Origin: Arcobacter sp.
GTDB taxonomy: Bacteria; Campylobacterota; Campylobacteria; Campylobacterales; Arcobacteraceae
Direction: 5' to 3'
NCBI GenBank assembly: GCA_002869565.1
Contig: PKUJ01000027.1
Coordinates: 256,801 to 320,800, forward strand
Length of the DNA stretch: 64,000 nt
Under the pieces are notes generated by a model. The model did not search any database. It had not been told where the DNA came from and was given only the letters and a program-made list of their open reading frames with translations. Below, piece after piece: positions 47,126-63,725 of the stretch (position 1 is the first letter of the stretch; each line of letters begins with the position of its first letter). Both the position numbers and the translations under genes were made by a program.

Positions 47126-47157
47126 TTAACAATTTTTTAACCAAATCTAACTACAAT
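47126..47157 (+). promoter_or_regulatory. Response-regulator promoter with TTAACA-type direct repeats
   Basis: TTAACA (47126-47131), 5 nt, TTAACC (47137-47142), 9 nt, TACAAT (47152-47157). The same layout occurs before the TonB receptor operon and exbBD-tonB. Spacing of 11 bp and the fixed 9-nt distance to the -10 box are PhoB-like. It suggests autoregulation. Confidence 0.7.
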
Positions 47158-47186
47158 ATATGTTTTAAATATAAATTGGAGTTTAA

Positions 47187-47846
47187 TTGCATAGAATATT
47201 AGTTTTAGAAGATGATGTACTTTTTTTAGAAACACTTGAAGATTTTTTAAGCGATGAAGGATTCCTTGTTCAAACGGCTGTTAACGGAGAAGAGGTAATT
47301 GAACTTTGTTATGAAAACAATTATGACTTATATCTTTTTGATATTAACGTTCCAAAAATAAATGGTATAGAATTATTAAAAGAATTACGTACTAAAAATG
47401 ATGATACTCCAACTATATATTTAACTTCTTATAAAGATAAAGAAAAGTTGACACAAGGTTTTTTATCTGGTTGTGATGATTACCTTAAAAAACCTGTTGA
47501 TTTAGATGAGTTACTTTTACGAATACAATCTTTACTAAAAAGAAGTGGTAAATCTTTCTCTGAAATAAAATTAAATAATGAACTTAGCTTTGAACCCAAA
47601 ACAAGAAGAGTTTTAAAATCTGGTATTGATCTATATATTGCAAGTAAAATTATAGACTTATTAGAACTTTTTATTGAAAGAAAAGATACTATTATTACAA
47701 AAGAAATGATTATTAACAAGCTTTGGAAATATGATGAAACATATAGTGAAGGTTCTATAAGAGTTTATATCAATAATTTAAAAAAACTTATAGGAAAAGA
47801 AAAAATAAAAAATATTAAAGGCATTGGGTATAAAATTGAATTATAA
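47187..47846 (+). CDS. OmpR/PhoB-type response regulator
   Basis: 219 residues from TTG 47187, with GGAG six bases before. Receiver domain: LEDD (acidic pair), Asp52 in LFDINVPKING as the phosphorylation site, TSY and the Lys in DDYLKKPVD. The DNA-binding winged helix (about 125-219) ends in KLIGKEKIKNIKGIGYKIEL. Members bind direct repeats spaced 11 bp. Such repeats sit in its own promoter and before two operons downstream, so it probably controls the TonB/redox cluster. It is coupled to the following kinase gene by overlap. Confidence 0.92.
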   Translation: MHRILVLEDDVLFLETLEDFLSDEGFLVQTAVNGEEVIELCYENNYDLYLFDINVPKINGIELLKELRTKNDDTPTIYLTSYKDKEKLTQGFLSGCDDYLKKPVDLDELLLRIQSLLKRSGKSFSEIKLNNELSFEPKTRRVLKSGIDLYIASKIIDLLELFIERKDTIITKEMIINKLWKYDETYSEGSIRVYINNLKKLIGKEKIKNIKGIGYKIEL

Positions 47847-48690
47847 AAAAAGAAATTTTATAATTACAAATTCTATTATCATAGTTTTTGTTTTACTTTT
47901 ATCTTTACTTCTAAATTTTTATTTGACTACAATATTTGATTTTAATCAAGATACTTTCATTCTTTTAACTTTAACTGTTTTAATCTTTGGTTTAGTCTTG
48001 TATTTAATCTTAAGTAAAACTATTTTTGAACCACTTTTTAAAAGTGATGAAAACCTTCAAAAAACTGTAAAAGAAACCTTACATGAACTTAATATTCCTA
48101 TTTCTACAATTAAATTAAATACTCAGATGTTGGAAAAAAAGATAAGTGGTGAAAAAGAATTAAAAAGGTTAAATCGTATTAAATTAGCTTCAAATAATCT
48201 TTTAAAGCTTTATGAAGACATGGAATATCAGATTAAAAAAGAGCTAGATAAAATTGATATTACAACTTTTGGTTTACAAGATTTAGTTTTAAGAAGTTTA
48301 GATAAATTTGATGATTTAAAAAAAGATATAAAAATTGATGTTGATGTTGAGAATATAGAATTAAATAGTGATATAAATGGTTTTGAAAAAATGATTGATA
48401 ATCTAATCTCTAATGCTTTAAAATATAATCTTTCAAAAGATGGGATTATAAAAATAAAGTATGAAGATAAAATTTTATCAATATTTAATACAGGCAAAGA
48501 AATTGATACAAAAAACTTATTTATAATTTTTGACAAATATTTTCAGGAAGATTCTTCAAAAGATGGTTTTGGATTGGGATTAAATATAGTAAAAGAATTT
48601 TGTGATAAAAATAAAATTGCTATTAAAATAGAGCCTAAAAAGAATGGAAACTCTTTTATTTTGAACCTTAAAAATTTAATTAACAATTAA
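47824..48690 (+). CDS. Compact sensor histidine kinase, partner of the regulator
   Basis: 288 residues from TTG 47824; TTG 47836 is an alternative. Two helices (14-36 and 44-65) flank only about ten residues of periplasmic loop, so it has almost no extracytoplasmic sensor domain. Phospho-acceptor His87 is in LHELNIPI. HATPase blocks: MIDNLISNALKYN, FDKYF and GFGLGLNIVKEF. The tiny loop suggests that it senses membrane state, a partner membrane protein, or a cytoplasmic cue. It overlaps the regulator gene by 23 nt. Confidence 0.9.
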   Translation: MGIKLNYKKRNFIITNSIIIVFVLLLSLLLNFYLTTIFDFNQDTFILLTLTVLIFGLVLYLILSKTIFEPLFKSDENLQKTVKETLHELNIPISTIKLNTQMLEKKISGEKELKRLNRIKLASNNLLKLYEDMEYQIKKELDKIDITTFGLQDLVLRSLDKFDDLKKDIKIDVDVENIELNSDINGFEKMIDNLISNALKYNLSKDGIIKIKYEDKILSIFNTGKEIDTKNLFIIFDKYFQEDSSKDGFGLGLNIVKEFCDKNKIAIKIEPKKNGNSFILNLKNLINN

Positions 48691-48754
48691 TAACTCTTTC
48701 TCTTTTGTAATCAAATTTAGGATATAATCTTTGAAATTATAAAAGGATTTGTTT

Positions 48755-49636
48755 ATGGATGAAACTTTAATATTGCCTTTGGCAATTATAATATTTGCGA
48801 TAATAATTATCGGAAAAGGTGTGCGAATTGTACCTCAATCAGAATTATATCTTGTGGAAAGATTAGGAAAGTATAATACTGTTCTTCATGGTGGTTTTCA
48901 TGTGATTATTCCTGTTGTTGATACAATAAGAGCCAAACTTACTTCACGAGAACAATTAATTGATATAGAAAAACAATCTGTTATTACAAGAGATAATGTA
49001 AACATTTCTATTGATGGGATTGTATTTTGTAAAGTTGATGATGCACAGGAAGCTACATATAACGTTGTAGATTTTAAAAATGCAATTGCTAATTTAGCTA
49101 TGACAACTTTACGGTCAGAAATTGGTGGTATGGATTTAGATGATACTTTATCAAATAGAGAAACTTTAAATGCAAAACTTCAAAATGAGCTTGGAAGTGC
49201 GGCTGCTAACTGGGGTATAAAAGTTACACGAGTTGAGATATCTGATATTTCTGTTCCTGCTGAAATTGAGCGAGCTATGAATATGCAAATGGAAGCTGAA
49301 AGAGAAAAAAGAGCAATTGAAACAAAAGCTAGAGCTGATAAAGAAGCAGTTATTAGAAAAGCAGAAGGTTTTAAACAAGAAGAGATATTAAAAGCTGAAG
49401 CAATTGAGAGAATGGCAGATGCAAAAAGATATGAACAAGAGCAAATTGCAGCAGGTCAAAAAGAGGCTATGGTTTTAATTAATGAATCAATGGCGCAAAA
49501 TGAAAAAGCAGCAGAATTTTTACTTGCTAAAGATAGAATTGCAGCTTTTAAAGCTTTAGCTGAGTCTTCTTCAAATGATAAAATGATATTACCTTATGAT
49601 GTAGCTCAAATGATAGGAAGCACAAGTGTATTGTGA
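48755..49636 (+). CDS. SPFH/band-7 membrane protein (QmcA-like)
   Basis: 293 residues from ATG 48755 (AAAGGA upstream). N-terminal helix (about 4-22), then the SPFH domain with VPQSELYLVERLGKY, IPVVDTIRAKL, LTSREQLIDIEKQSVITRDNV and GIKVTRVEISDISVP. A long Ala/Glu-rich coiled coil (EREKRAIETKARADKEAVI...) follows. It forms membrane microdomain scaffolds and often pairs with an NfeD protein, as here. Confidence 0.92.
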   Translation: MDETLILPLAIIIFAIIIIGKGVRIVPQSELYLVERLGKYNTVLHGGFHVIIPVVDTIRAKLTSREQLIDIEKQSVITRDNVNISIDGIVFCKVDDAQEATYNVVDFKNAIANLAMTTLRSEIGGMDLDDTLSNRETLNAKLQNELGSAAANWGIKVTRVEISDISVPAEIERAMNMQMEAEREKRAIETKARADKEAVIRKAEGFKQEEILKAEAIERMADAKRYEQEQIAAGQKEAMVLINESMAQNEKAAEFLLAKDRIAAFKALAESSSNDKMILPYDVAQMIGSTSVL

Positions 49637-49661
49637 GATGCTTTTTTCAAAGGTGTAAGTA

Positions 49662-50105
49662 ATGGAAACACAAACAATGCTTCTTGAGGTAATTAATCCA
49701 TATATATTATTAGGAATTGGAGTTGCTTTAATAGGCTTTGAGGCTATTATAACTTCATTTATTTTGATATGGTTTGGATTAGGTTTTATTATTACAGCAT
49801 TTATTAGCATGGCATACAATTTTTCTGACGGTGTTTGGCAACTTGGAGTTGTATCAATTATCTCTGTAATATTTATAATATTGCTAAGGAAAAAAGCTTT
49901 AGAAAAGTTTTTATCATCAGAAAGTAATATTACGGATAACTTTTTAGAAGAGGGTGGTATTGGAGAAATTAAAAACTCAAAAGTATTTTTCAAAGGTACT
50001 TACTGGGAAATAGATCCGGAGTCTGATGAATTTGATTATGAAGAGGGACAAAAAGTATTAGTCTTTAAAACTCACAAAAATAACGCAATAATTCAAAAAA
50101 AGTAA
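49662..50105 (+). CDS. NfeD-family membrane protein
   Basis: 147 residues. Three hydrophobic segments (about 10-70) and a C-terminal OB-fold domain (EEGGIGEIKNSKVFFKGTYWEIDPES...EGQKVLVFKTHKNNAIIQKK), typical of the short NfeD/YbbJ type. It is cotranscribed with the SPFH gene; the pair is usually linked to membrane quality control. A strong terminator follows. Confidence 0.9.
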   Translation: METQTMLLEVINPYILLGIGVALIGFEAIITSFILIWFGLGFIITAFISMAYNFSDGVWQLGVVSIISVIFIILLRKKALEKFLSSESNITDNFLEEGGIGEIKNSKVFFKGTYWEIDPESDEFDYEEGQKVLVFKTHKNNAIIQKK

Positions 50106-50109
50106 TTTT

Positions 50110-50137
50110 CTAAAGCAGCTTTCCTGCTTTAGTTTTT
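50110..50137 (+). terminator. Intrinsic terminator after the NfeD gene
   Basis: CTAAAGCAG and CTGCTTTAG form a perfect 9-bp stem with a 5-nt loop, followed by TTTTT. It isolates the SPFH/NfeD pair from the TonB receptor operon. Confidence 0.9.
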
Positions 50138-50141
50138 AAAC

Positions 50142-50195
50142 TTAACAAAAAATTAACACTTATTTAATTATTAATTAACAAAAATACTTTATTAT
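50142..50195 (+). promoter_or_regulatory. TonB-receptor operon promoter with four-slot 11-bp array
   Basis: TTAACA at 50142, TTAACA at 50153, TTAATT at 50164 and TTAACA at 50175, all exactly 11 bp apart. The last repeat ends 9 nt before TATTAT (50190-50195). This equals the spacing in the response-regulator and exbB promoters. Placement over the -35 region fits a PhoB-like activator. Confidence 0.75.
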
Positions 50196-50219
50196 CCTAA
50201 TAAAAAATTAAGGATATGA

Positions 50220-52373
50220 ATGAAAAGAATTGAAAGTGGACTTTTAAGTGCCTTTTTATTGGGTTCTTTTAGTATTAATCTTTTAGCAGTAGAAGAATTG
50301 GATTTAATTACAGTTGAATCTACAACAATCGATGATAAATTTAATTCAAAAAGTAAAGAAGTATCCAATGTTATGACTATAAACAGTAATGATATTGAAA
50401 AAATCAATCCTACAAATGTGGAAGATGTATTAAAAACAATTCCTGGAATTACTGCATCAAACGTAGGAAATGATAGGGTTAAAATACATATTAGAGGTGT
50501 AGATAATCACAGATATATGGGTGAAAAACCTGGTGTTGCAGTTGTAATTGATGTAGTTCCTGTGCAACAAACTAGTGGTAAGATAGATCTTGACTTGGAT
50601 AATATTGCTAGTATAAAGGTCATAAAAGGAGGAGCTAGTTATCTTTATGGTAATGATGCTATTGGTGGAGCAGTTATAATTACTACAAAAAGACCAAAAG
50701 GTGAAAGCTCATCAAAAATTGAAACAGAAGCAGGAAGTTTTGGTTTTAAAAGAATGCTCTTATCAACAAATCAAAGTTTTGAAAATAGTGATTTACAACT
50801 TCAAGGAAGTATAAGAGATAGTGATGGTTATTGGGCAGACGCTTATTTAAAACATAAATCTATAAATGGTAAATATCAATATTACTTAAATGAAACAAGT
50901 GACCTTACTTTTGGATTAGATTACACAAAAAGAAAAACTGGTGATGGGACTAGTGTTCATGGTGAATCTAATGCAATACTTGACCCTACAAGTAATAATG
51001 ACATATCCTATTCAGCTTTTTATGATACAAGTTTAGTAAAAACATTTTTAACATATTCAAATGATCTTGACGATACTTCAAATATTATGGTAAATGTTTC
51101 ACGATATAAAGACCATACAACAAATTTATCAACTCCAGTTACAGATAGTTTAACTCATAAAACTTTTAGAAATGAAGAATGTATTCAAAATACACTAAAA
51201 GGTGAATATAGAAAATCATTTGATACTTTTGCTTTTATGGCAGGAGTTGATATAGCTAGAAATAGACAAACAAATAATTCAAAGGCAAATGTTGATTATA
51301 CTAGTGGCTATGGAAGGTCTGTAGTTGCAATAGATAGAGGTACTATAACTTCTGATTCAAGATTAGATGAAAATATTGAAGCATTTTATGGAGAACTTCA
51401 AAACCAATTAACTTCGAATCTTACAAGTACTTTGAATATTAGACATGATAGAATTAAATATAATTTTGTTGATAATTTAAATTATAAACTTAATGTAGCC
51501 CCTTCCTATAATGTAAATTCTTATAGAGCTGGATTAAATTATAAAATTAATGATAATCATAGTGCATATACAAGCTTCTCTACAGGATTTAGAACTCCAA
51601 CTGCAAGCCAAATAAGTGGTAATCAAGAAGGTATAGCAAAATATCCTGATGCAAATATTCCTTCATCACTTGATTCTGAAAAGACATATAATTATGAATT
51701 AGGTATTAAAGGAAAGAGTGGCTTATTTGATTATGATGCAGCAATTTACCAAATAGATAGAAAAAATTATTTAGGTACAAAAGCAGGCTCTTATATTTGG
51801 GGTGGAATTGATGATGAAGATGGATACACTTTTAACATGGGGGACATCAAAAGTAGAGGATTTGAACTTGCTTTAAATAGTGATAAGAAAAAAGATTTAT
51901 CATTTGACCTTGCCTATACATATCTAGATTCTACTTTCAAAGAGTATAGCATTGTTCATAAAACAGCAAATGCCCTTGGCTTTGGTCGTTCTGCAATTCC
52001 AGCACAATATTCAAGAATTAATTTAGCAGGAAATCAAGTACCAAGAACTTCTAAACATACATTAAATTTTATTATTGATTATAAAGCTACTGATAAACTT
52101 ACTATTTCTCCAGAAATTTCTGCAAGAAGCAGTTACTATGCCGATGAAATGAATAAATTTAAACAAGGTGGATATACTTTAATGAATTTAAGAGCAAATT
52201 ATAAATTTTCAAAGTCACTTGAATTTTTTGCAAAAATTGATAATCTACTGAATAAAAATTATTATCAATTTACAAATGTTAGTTCAAGTAGTTTCGATAA
52301 TACAATGGAAGATGCAACTATAAGAGTTGCTGCACCAAGAGCTTACTATATTGGTTTAAGATACAAGTTCTAA
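50220..52373 (+). CDS. TonB-dependent outer-membrane receptor (redox cluster)
   Basis: 717 residues. Signal peptide to about residue 23 (LLAVEE), then a TonB-box-like LDLITVES, a plug domain (IEKINPTNVEDVLKTIPGITAS, IKVIKGGASYLYGNDAIGGAVIITTKRP) and a 22-strand barrel ending in the outer-membrane signal YIGLRYKF. The ligand cannot be read from sequence. It heads a unit with membrane Fe-S proteins and an activase pair, and its promoter carries the 11-bp repeat array. A ligand that needs reduction after import, such as a ferric or cobalt complex, is one possibility. Confidence 0.9.
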   Translation: MKRIESGLLSAFLLGSFSINLLAVEELDLITVESTTIDDKFNSKSKEVSNVMTINSNDIEKINPTNVEDVLKTIPGITASNVGNDRVKIHIRGVDNHRYMGEKPGVAVVIDVVPVQQTSGKIDLDLDNIASIKVIKGGASYLYGNDAIGGAVIITTKRPKGESSSKIETEAGSFGFKRMLLSTNQSFENSDLQLQGSIRDSDGYWADAYLKHKSINGKYQYYLNETSDLTFGLDYTKRKTGDGTSVHGESNAILDPTSNNDISYSAFYDTSLVKTFLTYSNDLDDTSNIMVNVSRYKDHTTNLSTPVTDSLTHKTFRNEECIQNTLKGEYRKSFDTFAFMAGVDIARNRQTNNSKANVDYTSGYGRSVVAIDRGTITSDSRLDENIEAFYGELQNQLTSNLTSTLNIRHDRIKYNFVDNLNYKLNVAPSYNVNSYRAGLNYKINDNHSAYTSFSTGFRTPTASQISGNQEGIAKYPDANIPSSLDSEKTYNYELGIKGKSGLFDYDAAIYQIDRKNYLGTKAGSYIWGGIDDEDGYTFNMGDIKSRGFELALNSDKKKDLSFDLAYTYLDSTFKEYSIVHKTANALGFGRSAIPAQYSRINLAGNQVPRTSKHTLNFIIDYKATDKLTISPEISARSSYYADEMNKFKQGGYTLMNLRANYKFSKSLEFFAKIDNLLNKNYYQFTNVSSSSFDNTMEDATIRVAAPRAYYIGLRYKF

Positions 52374-52383
52374 AAGTAAATAA

Positions 52384-53043
52384 TTGGAAAATTTAACTTT
52401 TATTTCTCTTTTTATTATTGGACTATCTTATGGTGCAACGGCATGCATGTTTTCGTGTATGCCGTTCCTAGCTCCATTATTGGTTAATAATTCAAATAGT
52501 TTCTATCATTCTAGTAAAGTTGTATTGCCTTTTAGTTTAGGTCGTGTTTTTACATATACTCTAATAGCTATTATTGCATCTATTAGTAGTGTAATTATTA
52601 AATCAACTTTAAATGATAATAGTTTGTTTCAAAATCTTCTTGGATGTTTTACTATAGTTATGGGATTTTTAATGCTAATAAAAGTTTTTAAAAACAAAAA
52701 AGCATGCAATAGTTCAAATAAGACTAATATTTTTAATAAAAAAGGTGTAATTGGATTATTTACAATTGGTGCTTTAGTATCTCTTAATCCTTGTGCACCT
52801 ATCTTAACTTTAGTAACAATAAGTGCTAATACATCTTCCATTCCTGCTGCTGTGTTATTTGGGTTATCATTTGGTTTTGGTGCTATTTTGGTGCCTTTTA
52901 TATTTTATACCTTTGTTGTATCAAATATTTTTAGGGGTCTTCTTGAACAGTTTAAATCTTCAATAAGATATATAGAACTATTTGCTTCTTTTTTTCTTAT
53001 ATTCGTAGGTTTGATGGTTTTATTAGGAGAAGTCACTTTATAA
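52384..53043 (+). CDS. DsbD_2/TauE-SafE-like membrane protein with redox cysteines
   Basis: 219 residues from TTG 52384, 10 nt after the receptor stop. Six helices. Cys21 and Cys25 in ACMFSCMPF at the first helix and Cys137 in SLNPCAP at the fourth resemble the membrane cysteine pair of DsbD/CcdA that carries electrons across the membrane. It lacks the soluble thioredoxin domains. In this cluster it may pass electrons to the periplasm or move a metal. Both readings rest on motif and context. Confidence 0.75.
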   Translation: MENLTFISLFIIGLSYGATACMFSCMPFLAPLLVNNSNSFYHSSKVVLPFSLGRVFTYTLIAIIASISSVIIKSTLNDNSLFQNLLGCFTIVMGFLMLIKVFKNKKACNSSNKTNIFNKKGVIGLFTIGALVSLNPCAPILTLVTISANTSSIPAAVLFGLSFGFGAILVPFIFYTFVVSNIFRGLLEQFKSSIRYIELFASFFLIFVGLMVLLGEVTL

Positions 53044-53156
53044 GTATAAAAATATCATCAATAACTAACTTTTTTTTAAACATTAAAGCAAAAAAATAAT
53101 GCTTAAAAGAGAGTTTTAAACTTTTAAAATCTGATGTTTACCAATGGAGTAATTTT

Positions 53157-55499
53157 ATGGTTAATTTTATAAAAAGAGATGGGAATGATATTTTTAATAA
53201 ACCTATTTTAGGTTTTTTATTTAAAAATAAAATCTTTTTATTTATTTTGCGAGTTATAGTTCTTTTCTTATTTCTCTACGCAATTTATTATGGTTTTACA
53301 AATCCAGAAGCTGACAATATATTTACAAGTGCTGTATTTTGGGGTGTATTTTGGTCACTGTTTATGGTTACAACATTGCCTACTTTTGGTAGGATATTTT
53401 GTGGTATTTGCCCCCATGGATTTTTAGGAAAATATATAACAAAATTTGGACTAAAAAAAACTATGCCAAAATGGATGCAAAATAGATATATTGGTATTGC
53501 AATGCTTGTAGTTGGATGGTGGGCTGTATATTATACTTTTCCTGGATTTTGGAAATCTCCACTTAATACAGCTATCATGTTTGGAGTATTGACAGTATTA
53601 TCTTTTATAATCTATTATATCTATAAAGATATGAGTTATTGTAAATATATTTGTCCGATTGGAACTCTAACAAGAGCTTATGATAAGCTTTCTTTTACTA
53701 AACTTGAAACCTATACAGATTCTTGTAAGGATTGCAAAACATTTGAGTGTGCAAGTTCTTGTCCTTATAATTTAAAACCTTTTACCTTTGCAAAGAAAAA
53801 TCAAACTGAGGATTGTACTCTTTGTATGGAGTGTGCTCACTCTTGTGAAGCTGTAAAGTTTAAATTTACTAAACCTGCGGAACAATTGGGTTCAAAATTA
53901 AAATTATTAAATTCTGAAATCTGGACTTATATACTAATCCTTGCTTGTATCCCTGTATCTATGGGTTTTGCACATGGATTAAATAGAAGTAAAATAGCAG
54001 ATGAATTTATTTGGAATAAGACAGCTGTATTTTTTGATATGAGTGCATATGCTGGTGGATTTGCATTTTTATATGCGGTTTTATTTACTTCTTTTTTCTC
54101 AGTTTTTGGTCTTTATTTAGCGTCAAAAGTACTTAAAAAAGAGTATTCTTCTATTTTTACTAATTTAGGAGTTGCTTTAATTCCTTTATTTATTTTTGCT
54201 TCATTAGGTCACACTTTAGAGTCATTTTTTACAAGTGGTTACTCTAAAATTGTTGAAGGTTTTGCCCAAGGTTTAGGTCTAAATGTAGAGATAAATAACT
54301 TAGCAAAAAGAGGAGATGCTTGGTTACATTATTTTGGTTTATTTAAATGGATAGGCATTATATGGGCTTTTATATTACTATATAAAAGAATGAAATTAAT
54401 AGATGCAACAAAATTAAGAAAAATTCTAGCTTACTTTCTTGCTTCATTTGCAATACTTTTTTATATAGGTTTAAATATTTATTCGGGATATGTCTTTAGT
54501 AAATATGGAGTGAAACTAAGAGGGGGACATTCTCATAGTAAAAATTCTAAGAAAATTGTAGACTTACAAAAAACTTCAGAATTTGCAAGTAAGGACTTTT
54601 CTTCACAAAATCTTGTTAGAAAAAAAATTATGGTTAATCCATTAGAAGAATTTTATTTCTCATTATCTGATCCTACAAATAAACAAAAAAATTCTGGTGG
54701 TCGCGGTCATACCATGGGAAAACCAAGTGGAAAACCTAATGGTAAAAAAGAGATACCTACAAAAAAAGTTTGGCTTTCATATAACTCAAAAGATTTAAAA
54801 CTATTTTATTACGATATAAATCAAAAAGAGAAAGAGATATTAAAAACTAAAAGTCGTGGCAAAACACAAATGAAATTTGAAGTTCCTAACAATGGTTATT
54901 ATAACTTATTTGCTGTTGATGAAAAAAAACTAGATGATAAAGTTTTTTATAAAGTTGCTAAATTAGAATATCTTAATGGAAGACACGGCAATGAAGATAT
55001 CTATAATGAAAAAATCAAAAAACAATTGAAACAAAATAAAACAAAAATCGATTTAATAAGAATTAAATCAGAAGATGAAGATAGCTTCTTTTATAAACAT
55101 AAAATGGGTAATGAATTAAAGTTTCAAGCACTTTTTGAAAATAAACCTTTATCCAATGCAAAAGTTAAAATAAAACTAGAATCAGGGTGGATAAAAGAGC
55201 TAAAAACTGATAAAAATGGTTTTGTCTCTTTTATTTTAGTTAGAGATTATTTTCCAAAATGGAATGAGTTTAATAAAAGATTTAAACAAGATTTTCTAAT
55301 AACTTTAGAGTATGAAAAAGGTGATGCAAACTATATTCTTACTTATCCCTCAAGTTATTATCCAAATAGTTCAGACTATGAATCTTATGGATATGGACTG
55401 ATTTTGCTAGTATTAACTCTACTTGCTTCAGGAATTATAGTATATAGATTTAGAAGAAATAGAACTAAAACATTTAGCGAGATAAGAATTCATGAATAG
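53157..55499 (+). CDS. Polytopic Fe-S protein (NapH/NosR-like) fused to a periplasmic beta domain
   Basis: 780 residues. Residues 30-160 are membrane helices with CGICP (Cys82, 85) and CKYICP (Cys162, 166), the pair typical of NapH/NosR/CcoG. Residues 190-230 bear two 4Fe-4S motifs: CKDCKTFECASSCP and CTLCMECAHSC, the latter followed by Glu rather than Pro. Four or five more helices reach about residue 460. Then comes a His/Gly/Lys-rich linker (RGGHSHSKNS) and a beta-rich domain (about 530-745, resembling DUF4198-type periplasmic domains), closed by a last helix. The fusion suggests electron delivery to a periplasmic ligand-binding module. Overlaps the next gene by 8 nt. Confidence 0.8.
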   Translation: MVNFIKRDGNDIFNKPILGFLFKNKIFLFILRVIVLFLFLYAIYYGFTNPEADNIFTSAVFWGVFWSLFMVTTLPTFGRIFCGICPHGFLGKYITKFGLKKTMPKWMQNRYIGIAMLVVGWWAVYYTFPGFWKSPLNTAIMFGVLTVLSFIIYYIYKDMSYCKYICPIGTLTRAYDKLSFTKLETYTDSCKDCKTFECASSCPYNLKPFTFAKKNQTEDCTLCMECAHSCEAVKFKFTKPAEQLGSKLKLLNSEIWTYILILACIPVSMGFAHGLNRSKIADEFIWNKTAVFFDMSAYAGGFAFLYAVLFTSFFSVFGLYLASKVLKKEYSSIFTNLGVALIPLFIFASLGHTLESFFTSGYSKIVEGFAQGLGLNVEINNLAKRGDAWLHYFGLFKWIGIIWAFILLYKRMKLIDATKLRKILAYFLASFAILFYIGLNIYSGYVFSKYGVKLRGGHSHSKNSKKIVDLQKTSEFASKDFSSQNLVRKKIMVNPLEEFYFSLSDPTNKQKNSGGRGHTMGKPSGKPNGKKEIPTKKVWLSYNSKDLKLFYYDINQKEKEILKTKSRGKTQMKFEVPNNGYYNLFAVDEKKLDDKVFYKVAKLEYLNGRHGNEDIYNEKIKKQLKQNKTKIDLIRIKSEDEDSFFYKHKMGNELKFQALFENKPLSNAKVKIKLESGWIKELKTDKNGFVSFILVRDYFPKWNEFNKRFKQDFLITLEYEKGDANYILTYPSSYYPNSSDYESYGYGLILLVLTLLASGIIVYRFRRNRTKTFSEIRIHE

Positions 55500-56475
55500 A
55501 TTAAAAAATACGATAAATAATATGAACTTGCAAAAAGTTCGTTTTGTTATACAAGTACTAACTTTTGTTCTTTTTGTTTATGGTGGATATTTTGCTCTAA
55601 GTTTTGGTTCTAAGTTACCTATCTTTGCCTGTCCTTATAATAGTGAGGCAGTTGGAGCATGTTATCTTATCCCTTTACAACATCAGCTTTCAATGCCTTC
55701 ACAGATTTTATTAGGTGGGGCTGGGATTGCAGTTATTACTGGACTTTTGGGGTTTTTATTTTGGTTTATTTTTTTAAATAAAGCTTGGTGTCGATATGTT
55801 TGTCCTTTTGGAACTTTTCAAGATTGGCTTACACTTTTAAGAAAAAATATAGGAATACGGTATTCAACTTATAGTCAAAATAATTTTGAAAAATTATCAA
55901 AAATTAAATATATATTTTTAGCCATAGTAATACTTTTCCCTTTATTTATGGGAGTTGGACTTTTAGGAAGTGATTGGTCAGCAGCTTTTTGTAAGATGTG
56001 TCCAGCTAGAGTAATTAGTCCTATGTTTAGTGGAGATTTTTCTCAATGGGCTATAGACTTCTCATCAAAAACTTCAATGATTTTAACTTCTATTGCAATT
56101 ATATTTGCAGGATTATTTTTAATTGGAAGTTTCGTAAAGAAAAGGTTTTTTTGTTTCTTTTGTCCAATGAGTGCTTTGCATTATATTTTTTCAAAATTTT
56201 CATTTGTCCAGCTTAAGAAAGATGGAAGCAAATGTACACGATGTGGAGATTGTTACGCGGTTTGTGATATGCAGATTAAAGATATTGCAGATGATGTTAC
56301 TAGTACTGATATCCTTAGAGATGATTGTATTTTATGTTTAAAATGTATTGCAGCATGTCCTGAAGATGATGCTTTGCATTTTGATATTTTTAAACTCAAA
56401 GCTTTTAGTTCAACAAAAGAGGGCTTTGAAAAAAGAATGGGAATTGAAAAACCACAAGGATTAAATAATGAGTAA
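55492..56475 (+). CDS. NapH-like polytopic ferredoxin
   Basis: 327 residues. Four to five helices; CRYVCPFG (Cys100, 104), CKMCP (Cys167, 170) and CFFCP (Cys221, 224) lie at helix ends. The C-terminus holds two ferredoxin motifs: CTRCGDCYAVC (248-258) and CLKCIAACP (282-289, with Cys279 before). Similar proteins move electrons from quinol to periplasmic or cytoplasmic acceptors. Overlap with both neighbours (8 nt each) shows a single translation unit with the fused Fe-S protein and the dehydratase-family protein, for which it is a plausible electron donor. Confidence 0.88.
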   Translation: MNRLKNTINNMNLQKVRFVIQVLTFVLFVYGGYFALSFGSKLPIFACPYNSEAVGACYLIPLQHQLSMPSQILLGGAGIAVITGLLGFLFWFIFLNKAWCRYVCPFGTFQDWLTLLRKNIGIRYSTYSQNNFEKLSKIKYIFLAIVILFPLFMGVGLLGSDWSAAFCKMCPARVISPMFSGDFSQWAIDFSSKTSMILTSIAIIFAGLFLIGSFVKKRFFCFFCPMSALHYIFSKFSFVQLKKDGSKCTRCGDCYAVCDMQIKDIADDVTSTDILRDDCILCLKCIAACPEDDALHFDIFKLKAFSSTKEGFEKRMGIEKPQGLNNE

Positions 56476-57745
56476 TAATAACCAACATATAATTGAATCA
56501 CCAAAAGAGAAACAGACAAGACACAAAGCGATGGAAGCTATTAAGGTTATAAATACTTTAAAAGAGGAGTTTAAAAACCCTCTAGAATCTATGGAATATT
56601 TTTATAAACTTTTCGAAGATGTATATTGTCATCAAAAATCACTTCATGATAATAAAGTGAAAGTTGGAACAATGTGCATACAAATACCTAGTGAAATAAT
56701 ATATGCTTTAGATGCAGTTCCAATTAGGCTTTGTAATGGCTTTTATACTGATGATGAGATTGGAAGTGATTATCTTACTCAAAAGGCTTGCCCACTTGTA
56801 AAAGCAACAGTAGGACACTTTGCAAGTAAAAACTTTAGTGATAAACCAAATTATATATACTCTCCCACTACTTGTGATCAAAAAACAAAAGCAGGGGAGA
56901 CAATAAAATCTTTTGGTTATGATGTTGTTGACGTTGATTTTCCAAGGGTAAAAGAGTCTGAAATAAGTCGTGAATATTTTAGAAGAAGTATTCGAGATTT
57001 TAGTATTGATTTATCAAGAAAAATGGGTAAAAAACTTAAAAAGAAAAATCTAAAAGCAGCCATAGGAAAAGTTGGATATGCTCAATCTTTATATCATAAA
57101 TTGTGTGAATATAGAAAAGATAGTGATATTAGGATTAATGGAAATGACATGTTCCTTGTAACAAATGCATTTTTCTTTGATAAGATTGATAACTGGATAA
57201 ATGCAATGGAAGCACTTATAGAAGAGTGTAAAGTAAGAAAAGAAAAAAATATTAGTGTTTGTGCAAAAGTTAGTCCTAGAATTGTTTATACTGGTTCTCC
57301 TCCTATTTTTCCAAATTATAAAATCCCAATTCTTATTGAAGAGTCTGATGCTGTAATTGTTGCAGATGAAACTTGCAGTTCAAATAGAATGTTCAATGAT
57401 AGGGTTGCAGTAGATGAATGGTTTGTAAATGATATGTTAGATTCAATGGCTGACAAGTATCTAAAAGCTTGCACTTGCCCAATATTTACAAAAAATGATG
57501 ACAGAATTAGAAGAATTATAGACCTTGTAAAATCATATAATGCTGATGGGGTAGTATATCAAGCCTATGCTGGTTGTACTGTATATGAACTTGAACAAAG
57601 ATCTGTATTGGCTGCTATGGAGAAAGAGGGCATTGCAATTTTATATTTAGAGAGTGATTATTCTCCTAGTCAAGGTGGTCAGTTAAGTACAAGGGTAGAA
57701 GCATTTATAGAATCACTTAAAATGAAAAAAAGGAAAGCTAAATGA
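56468..57745 (+). CDS. Double-cubane-type / 2-hydroxyacyl-CoA dehydratase-family protein
   Basis: 425 residues of the HgdB/FldB/YjiM family. Candidate cluster cysteines are Cys108 (KACPL), Cys136 (TTCDQ), Cys303 (ETCSS), Cys335 and Cys337 (ACTCP) and Cys370 (AGCTV). It is a single subunit, not the alpha-beta pair of true dehydratases, and no CoA-transferase or acyl-CoA gene is near. This fits the double-cubane cluster proteins that reduce small molecules with electrons primed by an ATP-driven activase, which is the next gene (ATGA overlap). The substrate is unknown. Confidence 0.85.
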   Translation: MSNNNQHIIESPKEKQTRHKAMEAIKVINTLKEEFKNPLESMEYFYKLFEDVYCHQKSLHDNKVKVGTMCIQIPSEIIYALDAVPIRLCNGFYTDDEIGSDYLTQKACPLVKATVGHFASKNFSDKPNYIYSPTTCDQKTKAGETIKSFGYDVVDVDFPRVKESEISREYFRRSIRDFSIDLSRKMGKKLKKKNLKAAIGKVGYAQSLYHKLCEYRKDSDIRINGNDMFLVTNAFFFDKIDNWINAMEALIEECKVRKEKNISVCAKVSPRIVYTGSPPIFPNYKIPILIEESDAVIVADETCSSNRMFNDRVAVDEWFVNDMLDSMADKYLKACTCPIFTKNDDRIRRIIDLVKSYNADGVVYQAYAGCTVYELEQRSVLAAMEKEGIAILYLESDYSPSQGGQLSTRVEAFIESLKMKKRKAK

Positions 57746-58545
57746 AATACTTCGCAGGTATAGATATAGGTTCTACAGCTATAAAAATTTCAATAGCTAA
57801 TGAAAAAAAAGAGTTAGTAGGTCACAAAATTAGTGCAAGTGGAAGTATGTTTTATAAATATGCACATGAAACTTTGGATTTGCTTTTGTATGAGTTAAAT
57901 CTTACTAGAGATGATTTAGTTTATACAGTTGCTACAGGTTATGGAAGAAAGATTTTTAAAGAAGCTAATGAAAATATTAGTGAGATTACTGCAAATGCAA
58001 TAGGAGCAAGGGCGGCTGCTAAAGATTATGGTGAAATAAAAACCATAATAAATATTGGAGGACAAGATAGTAAAGCTATATCTTTGGATGATGAAGGAAA
58101 TGTTACAAATTTTGCTATGAATGACAGATGTGCCGCAGGAACAGGGAAGTTCTTAGATGCTTGTGCTATGAATCTTGAAATAGGAGTTGATGAGTTAGGA
58201 GATAGGCATTTTAAATCTGAAGGAACTCCTTTATCTATAAATAGTACTTGTGCAGTATTTGCAGAATCTGAGATTATTGGACTTTTAGGAAATGAACATA
58301 GTGTTGAAGATATTGTTTGTGGTGTTCATTACTCTATTGCAAAGAGAATTGTAAAACTAGTAAAAAGAGTTGGAATAAAAGATGGAATCTATTTTGATGG
58401 AGGACCTGCTCTTAATGGTGGACTTGTAAGTGCAATAGAAAATGAGTTATCCAAAAAGATTTTTATTCCAGAGTATCCTCAAGTTACTACCTCTTATGGT
58501 GCAGCAATTATTGGTATAGATTCTTATACTTATGAAAATAGTTAA
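57742..58545 (+). CDS. ATP-dependent activase of the dehydratase/double-cubane protein
   Basis: 267 residues, HgdC/BadF-BcrA type ASKHA ATPase. GIDIGSTAIKISI (phosphate-1 loop), INIGGQDSKAI, and FDGGPALNGG (adenosine). Cys130 in DRCAAGTGKF and Cys170 in NSTCAVF are the two ligands that, from two subunits, hold one [4Fe-4S] cluster at the dimer face. It injects a very low-potential electron into its partner with ATP hydrolysis. It is the last gene of the TonB-receptor unit. Confidence 0.93.
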   Translation: MKYFAGIDIGSTAIKISIANEKKELVGHKISASGSMFYKYAHETLDLLLYELNLTRDDLVYTVATGYGRKIFKEANENISEITANAIGARAAAKDYGEIKTIINIGGQDSKAISLDDEGNVTNFAMNDRCAAGTGKFLDACAMNLEIGVDELGDRHFKSEGTPLSINSTCAVFAESEIIGLLGNEHSVEDIVCGVHYSIAKRIVKLVKRVGIKDGIYFDGGPALNGGLVSAIENELSKKIFIPEYPQVTTSYGAAIIGIDSYTYENS

Positions 58546-58562
58546 AAACATTACTTTATAAT

Positions 58563-58594
58563 TTAACAGTTAATTAACAAAATTAATCTAAAAT
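58563..58594 (+). promoter_or_regulatory. exbB promoter with TTAACA 11-bp repeats
   Basis: TTAACA at 58563 and at 58574 (11 bp apart), then 9 nt, then TAAAAT (58589-58594). A further TTAACA at 58596 keeps phase (22 bp). The repeat-to--10 distance is identical to that before the receptor operon and the response regulator. The motif TTAATTAACAAAA is shared with the receptor promoter. Confidence 0.7.
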
Positions 58595-58619
58595 CTTAAC
58601 ATTAAAATAAGGATAGATT

Positions 58620-59045
58620 ATGGATATGGAATTGCTAAAGAACTTGGTAGATTATGGAGTTATCGTACTTTTACTATTTATGAGTTTTATTGCAGTAATG
58701 CTATTTATTGAAAGGCTTTTTTTCTATATAAAACTAGATGTAAATAAATATAAAAATAAAAAACAACTAGATGTGGCTTTGACAAAGAATTTAACCTTTA
58801 TAGGAACTATTGCTTCTAATTCGCCCTACATTGGACTTCTTGGTACTGTATTAGCAATTATGCTTACCTTTATGAATATGAGTGAAGGGGATATTGAAGC
58901 TACTAAAATTATGAGTTCTTTAGCATTAGCTTTAAAGGCAACTGCTGTTGGCTTAGTTGTTGCTATTGTATCTATGGTTTTTTATAATATTTTAAGTAGA
59001 ACAGCAGAAATCTTGGAAAGTAATTATGAAAATCAAGAAATTTGA
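58620..59045 (+). CDS. exbB: ExbB-type proton-channel subunit
   Basis: 141 residues, MotA/TolQ/ExbB family, short form. Helix 1 at about 12-32, then helices 2 and 3 around NSPYIGLLGTVLAIMLTFMNM and LALKATAVGLVVAIVSMVFYN, which hold the conserved channel residues. It powers TonB with the proton gradient. It overlaps exbD by 20 nt. Together with exbD and tonB it can energise both TonB receptors of this window. Confidence 0.93.
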   Translation: MDMELLKNLVDYGVIVLLLFMSFIAVMLFIERLFFYIKLDVNKYKNKKQLDVALTKNLTFIGTIASNSPYIGLLGTVLAIMLTFMNMSEGDIEATKIMSSLALALKATAVGLVVAIVSMVFYNILSRTAEILESNYENQEI

Positions 59046-59403
59046 TTCTATAAATGTAATTCCTTTTATTGATGTATTGCTAGTATTATTGGCAATAGTT
59101 CTGATGACATCAACTTTTATAGCTAAAGGAGTTATTCCTGTATCCTTGCCAAGTGCAAGTAATTCGGAAGAGATGAATCTTCTAAAAGATATCTCTATTT
59201 ATATAAAAAGTGATAATTCAATTTATTTAGAAAAAGAGATAACTACAATTGAAACACTAAAAGAAAAAATATCTAACTTAGATAGAAAAACAGCGGTTTT
59301 AATAAATAGTGATAAAGATGCAAAAATCGAAACTTTTGTTAGTATTTTAGATTTATTAAAAGAAAATAGTTTTGAAAATATATCCATAGTAACGAAAAAA
59401 TGA
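59026..59403 (+). CDS. exbD: ExbD-type subunit
   Basis: 125 residues. One helix starts with FIDVLLVLLAIVLMTSTF, carrying the conserved Asp of ExbD/TolR, and a small periplasmic domain follows. It works with ExbB as the inner-membrane motor. ATGA overlap with tonB. Confidence 0.93.
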   Translation: MKIKKFDSINVIPFIDVLLVLLAIVLMTSTFIAKGVIPVSLPSASNSEEMNLLKDISIYIKSDNSIYLEKEITTIETLKEKISNLDRKTAVLINSDKDAKIETFVSILDLLKENSFENISIVTKK

Positions 59404-60131
59404 TACGATATTTTAACTCTTTTATAATTACTACTTTTATATATGTATGTTTAAGTACTGTAATGCTTTTTGCATTTTCAAGTGAAAAAATTATTTTAGA
59501 AAAAAAGGTTAAGAAAAAAACTCTATCTTTAAAACATGTCACCTTAGTCAAAAAAGAAGAAGTTAAGACTCCTATAATAAAAAAGGAAGAGATGAAAAAA
59601 CCTGTAGAAAAAGTAGTCGAGAAAATAGTTAAAAAAGCAAAAGCAAAAAAAATAGTTAAAAAGAAGATAATAAAAAAGAGACCTAAAAAAATAGTAAAAA
59701 AGGTAGTAAAAAAAAGAGTAATAAAAAAAGTAATAAAAAAAGAAAAAGTCAAAACTGTTGAAAAAAAGATTAAAAAAGTACTTCCTTCTCCTGTTACAGA
59801 AAAATTAACTGAAAATAATATTAGCCCAAAAGTTAGTGTATCTCTTGATTATAAAGAAAATTTTTTAAAAGAAAATTTATATTTAATACAAAAACACATT
59901 AGAAAAAATGTAAAATATTCTAAAAGAGCAAGAAAACTAAAGATTGAAGGTGATGTTATTATTGAATTTTGTTTACTCAAAAATGGAAGAATTAGTAATA
60001 TAAAAGCATTATCAGGACATAAGTTATTAATAAAGTCTACAATTAAAGCCATTCATAAAGCATCTATCTCTTTTCCTAAAGTTAGTCAAAATATAACTAT
60101 TAAGATTCCTATTGAATATAAATTAATTTAA
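59400..60131 (+). CDS. tonB: TonB energy-transducing protein
   Basis: 243 residues. N-terminal helix (8-25), then about 90 residues of Lys/Val/Ile-rich linker (KKPVEKVVEKIVKKAK and similar) in place of the Pro-rich spacer of enteric TonB. The C-terminal domain has RKLKIEGDVIIEF and KNGRISNIKALSGHKLL, as in the TonB_C fold. It reaches the periplasm to engage receptor TonB boxes. A hairpin overlaps the stop. Confidence 0.9.
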   Translation: MIRYFNSFIITTFIYVCLSTVMLFAFSSEKIILEKKVKKKTLSLKHVTLVKKEEVKTPIIKKEEMKKPVEKVVEKIVKKAKAKKIVKKKIIKKRPKKIVKKVVKKRVIKKVIKKEKVKTVEKKIKKVLPSPVTEKLTENNISPKVSVSLDYKENFLKENLYLIQKHIRKNVKYSKRARKLKIEGDVIIEFCLLKNGRISNIKALSGHKLLIKSTIKAIHKASISFPKVSQNITIKIPIEYKLI

Positions 60132-60212: not shown

Positions 60213-60620
60213 ATGAAAACGTTAAAATTTTTAACAGTAGGTTTATGTATATTTGGTGCAACTTTATTAGTTGCGGAAACATTACCTGTTAGAGGACCTT
60301 TATCATTTGATACTTATGATAAAGATAATAACAAAGTTATTACACAAAAAGAGTTTGATGCAATAAAAACTGAACGAATGACTCAAAAAGCACAAGATGG
60401 TAGATTGATGAGAAATGCAGCGAACTCTCCAACTTTTTCAGACATAGATACAAATTCTGATGGAATAATTTCACCAAAAGAATTACAAGTTCATCAACAA
60501 AATAGATTTACAAATAGAGTAAATCAACAAAATAAAATGATGAATAAGGGTATGAAAAATGGCATGGGAAATGGTATGGGAATGCAAAATCCAAACAATG
60601 GAAAAGGCAAAAACTGGTAA
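60213..60620 (+). CDS. Periplasmic EF-hand protein with Met/Gly/Asn-rich tail
   Basis: 135 residues behind AGGAGG. Signal peptide to about residue 21 (LLVAET). Two EF-hands: DKDNNKVITQKE (about 36-47) and DTNSDGIISPKE (about 78-89), with Asp/Asn at positions 1, 3 and 5 and Glu at 12. The tail (from about 108) is rich in Met, Gly, Asn and Lys. It likely binds Ca2+ in the periplasm; the Met-rich tail could also bind Cu(I). It follows tonB with its own leader. Confidence 0.8.
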   Translation: MKTLKFLTVGLCIFGATLLVAETLPVRGPLSFDTYDKDNNKVITQKEFDAIKTERMTQKAQDGRLMRNAANSPTFSDIDTNSDGIISPKELQVHQQNRFTNRVNQQNKMMNKGMKNGMGNGMGMQNPNNGKGKNW

Positions 60621-61778: not shown

Positions 61779-63725
61779 ATGGAAAATAAGAAACTAGTCA
61801 CAAAAAAAACATTAAGCGTCGTTGCTTCGCTTCTAATAGCAACAAATCTTTACTCTTCGCAAGAGTTATCAGCAATTACAGTTACTTCTTCATTAATAAA
61901 AACAAATGAAAAAGATTCTACCTATACAACAGAAATCTATACAAAAAGAGATATTGAAAAATCTAAATCAAGAGATTTATATGATTTTTTGAATTCACAG
62001 ACTTCAGTAATAGTTAGTCCTAGTTATGGAAACACCTTTTCACAAAAAATTGATTTAAGAGGTTATGGTATTGGTGATGGATATCAAAATGTTGCAATAT
62101 CTGTAAATGGCAGAAGATTAAATAATATTGATATGGTTACGCAGTTATTGTCTTCTATTCCAATAGAATCAATAGAAAAAATAGAAATTATTAAAGGTAG
62201 TGGCTCTGTACAATATGGAGATGGAGCAAATTCAGGTGTTATAAATATTATAACAAATGGAAAAAATGAAAACTATATTAAATCATACTATGGTAGTAAT
62301 GGAACAAAAAATGGAACTGTTAGTTTAGGCTACAGTAATGATAAAGTAATTTTAAATGCTTCTATTGACCGTACTTCTACTAGTGGTACAAGAAGTTTAG
62401 CTTCTGGAAATAAAGACAAAAATTACAATTTAAATAAAAATATAAATATTATATATTTTCCTACGGATGATTTAGAATTAAGAGTAGGAAGAACTTTCTC
62501 AAATATGAATACTATATATGGTGGAGATTTAACTTTATTAGAATATAAATTAAACCCTAATCATTCAAATAAACTTACAGAACAATATTTTAGATCATAT
62601 GTTACGGATGTAGGAGCAACTTATGAGATAAATAAAAATTATTCTATTGATTTAAATTATAATAAAGAGAAAAAGTTAAGTGCTTATTCTACAGGATTTA
62701 GATCAAACTACGAATACAAATCTTATAATTCAACTTTTAATATCAAACAAGATGATTTTAACGTTGTTATAGGAGTGGATGCCTTTAAAGCAAATAGAAA
62801 TAGCTCTTCTGATAAAACTACTAAAAACAATAAAGCAGCTTTTGTATCTGCTGAATATTACCTAAGTAAAGATTTGACTTTATCAGCAGGTGTAAGAAAA
62901 GAAAAAGTTGAGTATATTTATGCTCCAAATACAGGTACTTCTTTAAGTGATGAATTAACACTTGAGTCTCATGATATTGGATTAAATTATAAATTAAATG
63001 AAAATAGTTCAATATTTGCAAACTATAACAGAGCATATCAGGCACCAGATATCGATAGGTTTTTTGCTTCAACATGGGTTTTTAGTGGAGGAGCTTGGAA
63101 TAGTACAACAAATTTTAATGGTTTTATAGAACCAGCAAAAGTTAGAAACTTTAATATAGGATATACAAATATACAAAAAAATAATAAATTAAAAGTTACT
63201 TTGTTTAGAACTAATCTTAGAAATGAGATTTATTATTATAATGTTGGATTTACTAATAGAAATACAAATATTGATAAATCGCATAAATACGGAGTTGAGA
63301 TATTTGATAAGTATTTAATCAATGACAACTTATATACATCATTTAACTACTCTTACATTGTTGCAAAAATTGATCATGAAAATGAATCTAACGGTGCATA
63401 TAATGGAAAATATTTGCCAGGTGTATCTAAACATAATGCTACAATAAACTTAGGATATAACTATGATAAGTTTACTACAGTTTTATCTCATAGTTTTAGA
63501 AGTGGTGCACATGCAGCAAATGATTTCCAAAATAACTTTTTTCAAAAACAAGAAGTCTATAACTCTACAAATTTAAGTCTAACTTACAATTATAAAAATT
63601 TAGAGTTTTTTGCTAAAATAGAAAATCTTTTTAATGAAGATAATGCTTTATGGATAAGAGATGACGCAATTTATCCTAATAATTTTGAGCGTTCATATTA
63701 TGCAGGGATGAAAATTAAATTTTAA
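61779..63725 (+). CDS. TonB-dependent outer-membrane receptor 2
   Basis: 648 residues. Signal peptide to about residue 28 (ATNLYSSQ), TonB-box-like ELSAITVTSS, plug with DLRGYGIGDG and IEKIEIIKGSGSVQYGDGANSGVINIIT, and a barrel ending RSYYAGMKIKF. It overlaps the start of a BtuF-like binding protein, so its ligand is probably taken up by an ABC importer: cobalamin, heme or a ferric siderophore. The promoter area (61500-61550) has two TATAAT-like boxes in an A/T-rich stretch. Confidence 0.9.
   Translation: MENKKLVTKKTLSVVASLLIATNLYSSQELSAITVTSSLIKTNEKDSTYTTEIYTKRDIEKSKSRDLYDFLNSQTSVIVSPSYGNTFSQKIDLRGYGIGDGYQNVAISVNGRRLNNIDMVTQLLSSIPIESIEKIEIIKGSGSVQYGDGANSGVINIITNGKNENYIKSYYGSNGTKNGTVSLGYSNDKVILNASIDRTSTSGTRSLASGNKDKNYNLNKNINIIYFPTDDLELRVGRTFSNMNTIYGGDLTLLEYKLNPNHSNKLTEQYFRSYVTDVGATYEINKNYSIDLNYNKEKKLSAYSTGFRSNYEYKSYNSTFNIKQDDFNVVIGVDAFKANRNSSSDKTTKNNKAAFVSAEYYLSKDLTLSAGVRKEKVEYIYAPNTGTSLSDELTLESHDIGLNYKLNENSSIFANYNRAYQAPDIDRFFASTWVFSGGAWNSTTNFNGFIEPAKVRNFNIGYTNIQKNNKLKVTLFRTNLRNEIYYYNVGFTNRNTNIDKSHKYGVEIFDKYLINDNLYTSFNYSYIVAKIDHENESNGAYNGKYLPGVSKHNATINLGYNYDKFTTVLSHSFRSGAHAANDFQNNFFQKQEVYNSTNLSLTYNYKNLEFFAKIENLFNEDNALWIRDDAIYPNNFERSYYAGMKIKF

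Follow-up and report, generated by a model that had tools for sequence, protein, structure and literature searches.

A probable copper-acquisition regulon of repeat-headed promoters that includes a double-cubane reductase operon in Arcobacter

Genes and repeat-bearing promoters of the locus

To describe a predicted regulon we analyzed a stretch of 64,000 nucleotides from Arcobacter sp. (contig PKUJ01000027.1, positions 256,801 to 320,800), referred to here as the window. The subject is a set of TTAACA repeats spaced by 11 bp that head three promoters in the window, those of an OmpR/PhoB-family response regulator (RR), of an operon that begins with a TonB-dependent receptor (TBDR) and contains a double-cubane-type reductase, and of exbB. 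An earlier note on this DNA had described the repeats, their 11-bp steps and a 9-nt spacing to the -10 element in all three promoters, and each of these was found to be exact. The genes and promoter elements, all on the forward strand, are as follows.

47126..47142 (+): box of the RR promoter, TTAACA-N5-TTAACC (TTAACA 47126-47131, TTAACC 47137-47142); sequence, an 11/12 match with a -10
47152..47157 (+): -10 element TACAAT of the RR promoter; sequence, N9 after the box, which is the conserved distance
47187..47846 (+): OmpR/PhoB-family RR with a TTG start; Pfam Response_reg and Trans_reg_C
47824..48690 (+): cognate histidine kinase (HK) with two transmembrane helices and a very short periplasmic loop; Pfam HATPase_c, hydropathy
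48749..50105 (+): SPFH/Band 7 protein and a small membrane protein; Pfam Band_7 for the first, no Pfam match for the second
50142..50180 (+): receptor-operon promoter with four tandem half-sites in 11-bp steps; sequence, boxes also at related receptor genes
50190..50195 (+): -10 element TATTAT of the receptor promoter; sequence, N9 after the last half-site
50220..52373 (+): TBDR; Pfam Plug and barrel
52384..53043 (+): DsbD_2-family membrane protein; Pfam PF13386
53157..55499 (+): membrane polyferredoxin (Fer4_5) with a C-terminal beta domain; Pfam, weak DUF4198 match under its cut-off, relatives may have an inserted NosL
55492..56475 (+): NapH-like ferredoxin membrane protein; Pfam Fer4_5 above the cut-off, NapH models below
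56468..57745 (+): double-cubane-cluster-type reductase; NF040772 at 314 bits (cut-off 350), PDB 7yyl/6eno
57742..58545 (+): ATP-dependent activator of the acyl-CoA dehydratase activase type; TIGR00241 at 211 bits (cut-off 125)
58563..58579 (+): exbB promoter box TTAACA-N5-TTAACA (half-sites 58563 and 58574); sequence, boxes precede exbB at 8 places in 34 loci
58589..58594 (+): -10 element TAAAAT of the exbB promoter; sequence, N9 after the box
58620..60131 (+): exbB, exbD and tonB; TIGR02805 above the cut-off, ExbD, TonB_C
60213..60620 (+): EF-hand protein with a methionine-rich tail; Pfam EF-hand, sequence

The RR carries a receiver (PF00072) and a winged helix (PF00486), both above their cut-offs, and the HisKA score of the HK falls slightly under the Pfam cut-off. 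A box of the OmpR/PhoB type takes the place of the -35 element. In the receptor promoter the half-sites start at 50142 (TTAACA), 50153 (TTAACA), 50164 (TTAATT) and 50175 (TTAACA), and the promoter-proximal pair is TTAATT-N5-TTAACA with two mismatches. The 64-kb window was scanned by script for up to two mismatches to TTAACA-N5-TTAACA together with TANNNT at N9, and this returned exactly three sites, the three promoters above. A second TonB receptor nearby (61779-63725) had no box upstream in the same scan. The exbB operon may end with the EF-hand gene. The small membrane protein gene behind the Band_7 gene was read as NfeD-like, a label assigned by the analyst, and both of these genes are retained beside the RR-HK pair in locus L053.

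Conservation of the boxes and their link to the regulator pair

The genome that holds the window (3.49 Mb in 42 contigs) was scanned for the motif, a check that the earlier note had proposed, with the same pattern read backwards as the control. Sites were in excess, at 5 versus 1 for the strict pattern and 16 versus 7 when one mismatch was allowed, but the excess within this genome was modest and its statistics are insufficient to settle the matter. This small excess is what speaks for the repeats being products of chance in AT-rich DNA.

Related loci were found using the polyferredoxin of the receptor operon as the query and about 20 kb was taken for 20 of the better matches. As loci were picked by protein, the motif played no part in selecting them. 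Named organisms among them were Poseidonibacter lekithochrous, Arcobacter, Sulfurimonas and Sulfurovum, and the gene order receptor, DsbD_2, polyferredoxin, NapH-like, double-cubane, activator recurred in most of the 20 loci, often with exbB-exbD-tonB. Period and offset were counted in 34 of the 36 loci L039-L074 (638 kb), with L070 and L072 dropped as duplicates of the L051 and L052 regions and the near relatives L068 and L069 kept. Exact TTAACA pairs occurred 36 times at period 11 as compared to 0-2 times at each other period from 6 to 39, and with one mismatch 65 times at period 11 versus at most 20 at any other. A TANNNT element followed at N9 after 45 of 64 boxes, while any other offset from 2 to 21 gave 8 or fewer. 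The repeats were thus present in the orthologous clusters, a comparison the earlier note had set for its reading: 38 of the 45 boxes with a -10 stood directly before a receptor (24 TBDR and 2 of another receptor type), exbB (8), an RR (3) or tonB (1), and the remaining 7 stood elsewhere.

The strict pattern was found 53 times versus once for the control in 20 genomes having the operon or part of it, and 408 versus 21 times in 298 genomes of the order. These comparative counts, rather than the excess in the window's own genome, are strong evidence for the motif. The period-11 and 298-genome counts already refute chance as an explanation, which we consider to have a negligible probability, and the 11-bp-spaced repeats are almost certainly regulator sites that form a regulon.

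Which regulator uses the sites was assessed from the placement of the boxes relative to the RR-HK pair. Of the 30 best RR matches, the window among them, 8 had a box with a -10 directly upstream of the RR, and boxes also preceded the RR in L149, L164, L173 and L174. In the family of the window the RR was found in 28 of 30 genomes, 23 of which had boxes, and in 12 of these 23 a box lay within 16 kb of the RR where 0.85 would be expected under uniform placement. Within the same family exbB-exbD-tonB was near the RR-HK pair in 8 of 10 loci and a box stood directly behind the HK, before the next operon, in 6 of 10. In other families the pair adjoined exbB and exbD in 9 of 20 loci and one of the two genes in L225 (where the stretch ends) and L237, and the RR was directly behind a gene read as pyrC in 13 of the 20.

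Occurrence was compared across the 298 genomes with a kinase presence threshold of E <= 1e-35, which gave a kinase match in 176. A strict box was present in 144 of the 176 kinase-positive genomes (354 boxes) versus 30 of the 122 kinase-negative genomes (54 boxes). The families f10 (29 genomes) and f13 (28 genomes), which lack this kinase, had 3 boxes each, and in family f14 the sole two box-bearing genomes were among the three kinase-positive ones. Six kinase-negative, box-positive genomes of f7 were 57-87% complete. These results agree with the proposal of the earlier note that the boxes mark a regulon of the adjacent OmpR-type regulator, with boxes at related operons, near the RR gene and co-occurring with the cognate kinase.

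Several observations count against this assignment. The Fisher value for kinase and box (1e-23) overstates independence because the genomes are related and are not independent trials. Along with the 30 kinase-negative genomes that have a box, 32 of the 176 kinase-positive genomes have no strict box. A box was found in 7 of 21 genomes of the kinase-negative family f15 and in only 10 of 21 kinase-positive genomes of family f18, and the 99% complete genomes G184 and G195 (family f6) carry 8 and 6 boxes with no kinase at the threshold. No box with a -10 was found directly upstream of the RR in 18 other-family loci with an orthologous RR; in the other two of the 20 loci, L234 and L235 (family f10), the kinase is longer and a one-mismatch site lies more than 300 nt upstream. 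Self-activation, which the earlier note had also proposed, would therefore be general only in part.

It is also conceivable, though quite unlikely, that another OmpR-family regulator of the same genome binds the boxes and that the neighbouring RR has no part in this. Counting the RR itself, 77 matches to it occur in the genome, and several OmpR/PhoB-type regulators use similar direct repeats; in family f15 (L212) a different RR has a similar site upstream. Against this, none of the 29 best paralogues in the genome (0/29) had a match of at least 10/12 plus a full -10 upstream, and both the location and the occurrence of the RR-HK pair track the boxes. The recognition-helix stretch, SEGSIRVYIN in most close relatives of the RR, was similar in the other RRs from box-bearing genomes, while the 10 own-genome paralogues that were aligned differ. 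On this evidence the RR at 47187 is very likely the regulator in question. The L212 site itself, at 6782 (-), precedes the gene of an OmpR-type regulator that is 34% identical to the window RR, and near-identical sites were found in G048 and G246.

Genes behind the boxes elsewhere and the redox module

To survey targets in the window's own genome we used the 16 sites that deviate from the pattern by no more than one mismatch. The window's receptor promoter is missing from this set because its proximal pair has two mismatches. Eleven of the 16 sites headed genes. Among these were the RR, exbB and two NosL genes, one of which has a LolCDE-like ABC transporter next to it downstream. A DsbD_2 gene came second after a box-headed gene of 167 aa, and a gene judged by eye to be Sco1-like came second after a box-headed PCuAC gene. 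Also box-headed were a TonB receptor with TIGR01778 TonB-copper as its best NCBIfam model (196 bits, cut-off 472) and genes for a PepSY_TM protein, a thioredoxin-DsbD protein, a molybdopterin oxidoreductase and an unknown membrane protein. The other five sites (L246-L249 and L253) fit no copper reading and look like chance matches. The molybdopterin oxidoreductase behind one of the eleven one-mismatch boxes (L250 1557-2519, contig C33; Pfam Oxidored_molyb) resembles by eye the MsrP component of periplasmic methionine sulfoxide reductase.

In other genomes the first gene behind 55 strict boxes was classified by BLAST to the annotated own-genome proteins, with Pfam for part of them. A first set of 33 boxes comprised all 30 sites outside the operon loci in the 20 genomes plus 3 overlapping them. 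The remaining 22 boxes came from 20 hand-picked regions. Copper, TonB or regulator genes were behind 33 of the 55 boxes, 19 of 33 in the first set and 14 of 22 in the hand-picked set. These were 9 copper-type TBDR, 9 NosL, 5 RR, 4 PCuAC, 4 DsbD_2 (that in L216 counted as the second gene behind the box), 1 TBDR and 1 exbB. TIGR01778 was the best model for 8 of the 8 copper-type receptors scanned (of 9), all below the cut-off, and Pfam confirmed four PCuAC genes, one Sco1 gene and 3 of the 9 NosL genes. Genes behind the boxes thus match families expected of copper-acquisition regulon members, namely TIGR01778 (below cut-off), PF05573 NosL, PF04314 PCuAC and PF02630 Sco1. These assignments indicate that the regulon extends to copper genes elsewhere in the genome, which goes beyond the reading of the earlier note, and that it very probably concerns copper. 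A phosphate regulon, raised by the likeness of TTAACA-N5-TTAACA to the Bacillus PhoP box (TTAACA was not found in the literature among the matches listed) and by a Na/Pi cotransporter at 42453, was dropped given the recognised targets.

The copper reading has to be weighed against the boxes that do not fit it. Behind 22 of the 55 boxes there were other genes or no gene, or the box lay inside a gene (first set: L145 (one of two), L152, L153 (both), L154, L155, L156, L157, L161, L165, L166, L171, L172 and L174 (one of two); hand-picked set: L204, L205, L207, L208, L211, L212 (both) and L214), and one of the two sets was chosen by hand. The matches to TIGR01778 and NF040772 are under their curated cut-offs. 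The box of L204 at 3135 (-) precedes a secG-like gene (by eye) in G008 with no copper link, and a near-identical strict box occurs in five genomes of genus g2 (G008, G027, G225, G278 and G296); it is either a genuine additional target or a conserved promoter with a chance match. The best NCBIfam model for the window TBDR, under its cut-off, is of the siderophore type (TonB-siderophor), as it is for the related-operon receptors L042 and L044.

These receptor matches favor an iron/siderophore or heme uptake regulon, as does the capacity of PepSY_TM proteins to be ferrisiderophore reductases, described in the excerpt of PMC13038864. We consider such a regulon improbable, as NosL, PCuAC, Sco1 and TonB-copper models dominate the other recognised targets and NosL is fused to the polyferredoxin of the operon in six relatives.

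Three further observations concern genes behind boxes. Outer-membrane efflux or ABC-type genes are behind boxes in L153 and L157. A box-headed membrane protein family with a cytochrome c-like C-terminus (L245 1561-2898, own-genome contig C16, and L208 2924-4267) was seen in two genera, with a second membrane protein behind and no clear known relative; a PDB search with the L245 protein gave weak cytochrome c matches only. In three genomes of family f18 (L154, L156 and L172) boxes precede small proteins starting MQ(V/I)NG(M/T)GMQNM, two of which were scanned and gave no family above cut-off.

To examine the redox module of the receptor operon, the window polyferredoxin was aligned to 13 relatives. 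An inserted domain was present in 6 of the 13 and was NosL by Pfam in 6/6, each above the gathering score, whereas L039, scanned alongside, gave none. The window polyferredoxin has no NosL insert, which is a further point against the copper reading. Twelve cysteines in the ferredoxin part were invariant, and the structure model of the polyferredoxin was of low confidence (mean pLDDT 55). The DUF4198 match, presumably a pointer to nickel/cobalt, was below its curated cut-off and this lead was dropped, since the NosL fusion indicates copper. The double-cubane-type protein matched PDB 7yyl (8e-58) and 6eno (2e-57) over about 375 residues. With NF040772 it stayed below the cut-off, though this was still its best model by far, and the match to the solved double-cubane cluster protein (DCCP) over most of its length together with the adjacent activator is consistent with a protein of the double-cubane type. 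No relative was found in viral contigs.

NosL is a Cu(I)-binding chaperone required at low copper, and CcoG is a cupric reductase, a membrane 4Fe-4S protein with a periplasmic Ig-like domain, as given in the excerpt of PMC7558416. The NosL fusion, the parallel to CcoG and a double-cubane protein with an ATP activator together suggest reductive handling of an imported copper complex, acting on the copper or on the ligand.

Proposed circuit and comparison with known systems

Our data suggest a regulon for copper acquisition that is run by the adjacent two-component system, probably in response to copper limitation, and has the double-cubane reductase operon as a member, and we regard this combined reading as likely. 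The RR would bind the 11-bp-spaced TTAACA repeats, standing in for a -35 element, and activate transcription from the -10 placed 9 nt downstream. The HK and RR would turn on the regulon, probably at copper shortage, to produce receptors in the outer membrane, for copper itself or its complexes, with a dedicated ExbBD-TonB motor, the periplasmic copper chaperones NosL, PCuAC and Sco1, DsbD_2 membrane proteins (in places beside cbb3 oxidase genes), and a reductive module of polyferredoxin, NapH-like protein, double-cubane reductase and ATP-driven activator. The receptor would import a copper complex, ATP hydrolysis would raise electrons to low potential and pass them to the membrane ferredoxins to reduce copper or its ligand, and the copper would be handed over to the chaperones. 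The comparison shows the conserved geometry of the sites, the target genes, linkage to and co-occurrence with the kinase, and the NosL fusion, and from these we infer DNA binding, phosphorylation, the signal, copper transport and the chemistry. The most specific version, in which a copper-limitation two-component regulon releases copper from imported complexes by means of an ATP-powered double-cubane reductase and a polyferredoxin that in some relatives bears NosL, is tentative.

Copper limitation is more likely than not the signal. It is suggested because the targets serve uptake and delivery and none of the genes standing first behind the 55 boxes, not all of which were scanned, was recognised as a copper-efflux gene (CopA, CusCBA, multicopper oxidase), and by analogy to a copper-starvation-induced Bordetella operon with a TonB receptor and a PepSY_TM protein (PMC13038864, excerpt). 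The HK is nearly without a periplasmic part by hydropathy, so that nothing in it accounts for copper sensing, a point that weighs against this signal. The main rival is an oxygen or redox signal: the boxes and the regulator would be real and the signal respiratory (oxygen or the redox state of the quinone/oxidase chain), with copper genes included since heme-copper oxidases and N2O reductase need them. A short-loop membrane kinase would suit a membrane or redox signal, and ccoNO-like genes lie directly behind box-headed copper-type receptor or DsbD_2 genes in L148, L151, L158 and L213. The own genome has a reverse-oriented box (L110 6774 (-)) about 47 nt upstream of the point where ccoN of the cbb3 oxidase operon starts; as a guess, it might repress this copper-demanding oxidase. 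However, the commonest recognised targets outside the operon were copper-type receptors and copper chaperones and not general respiratory genes, and a ccoN-like gene was first behind the box in 0 of 55 cases, which makes a respiratory signal unlikely.

According to excerpts, bacterial copper acquisition pathways are poorly characterized (PMC12914433) and copper homeostasis in Campylobacterota is incompletely understood (PMC8267372). No description of such a regulon was found in the open-licence literature, judged by titles and abstract starts among the matches listed. The larger result is the predicted regulon that reaches copper genes and includes the double-cubane reductase module, and it suggests that Campylobacterota have an as yet undescribed circuit controlling copper supply, with an unusual ATP-powered iron-sulfur reductase. 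A motif joining a two-component system, TonB uptake, copper chaperones and a double-cubane enzyme gives each of them a concrete, testable role and, if true, this would be a new, reductive kind of copper acquisition.

Pho boxes of the PhoB/PhoP type are two 11-nt direct repeats (PMC4415409, excerpt), and the window boxes are like them in their 11-nt direct-repeat units. The Pho regulon differs in that the recognised targets here are copper and TonB genes; no gene standing first behind the 55 boxes, not each of which was scanned, was recognised as serving phosphate uptake, and the RR scored 112 bits against the PhoB model TIGR02154 (cut-off 296). CusRS/CopRS and CrdRS of Helicobacter pylori likewise have an OmpR-type regulator and a membrane kinase tied to copper, with CusRS controlling the Cus operon (PMC7558416, excerpt). 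They differ from the present system, in which the genes recognised as targets serve uptake and delivery and the HK has almost no periplasmic part. Scores against models of these metal-excess systems were low for both the RR (cztR_silR_copR, TIGR01387, 117 bits, cut-off 279) and the HK (kinase model TIGR01386, 54 bits, cut-off 293).

In Bordetella pertussis, CruR-CrtA-CrpH comprises a PepSY_TM protein and a TonB receptor that responds to copper, and it serves heme-copper oxidases (PMC12914433 and PMC13038864, excerpts), and the present regulon is similar in its copper-linked TonB receptor and PepSY_TM protein. It differs in that the word polyferredoxin is absent from PMC12914433 and PMC13038864, and two-component control of the operon is not mentioned in the excerpts of either paper. 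Like CcoG, the window polyferredoxin is a 4Fe-4S protein of the membrane that has a beta domain at its C-terminus (low-confidence model), but NosL occurs in 6 of 13 relatives and it stands with a double-cubane reductase. An NCBIfam scan of the polyferredoxin at E <= 0.001, in a library that includes a ccoG model, gave NapH-type models only and none for ccoG/fixG. With DCCP (PDB 6eno, 7yyl) the window reductase shares the sequence match and an adjacent ATP-dependent activator, but its gene sits in a TonB-receptor operon. The physiological relevance of DCCP reactions is described as still unclear in the excerpt of PMC11971306, and the proposed regulon would, if true, provide a physiological role for double-cubane cluster proteins.

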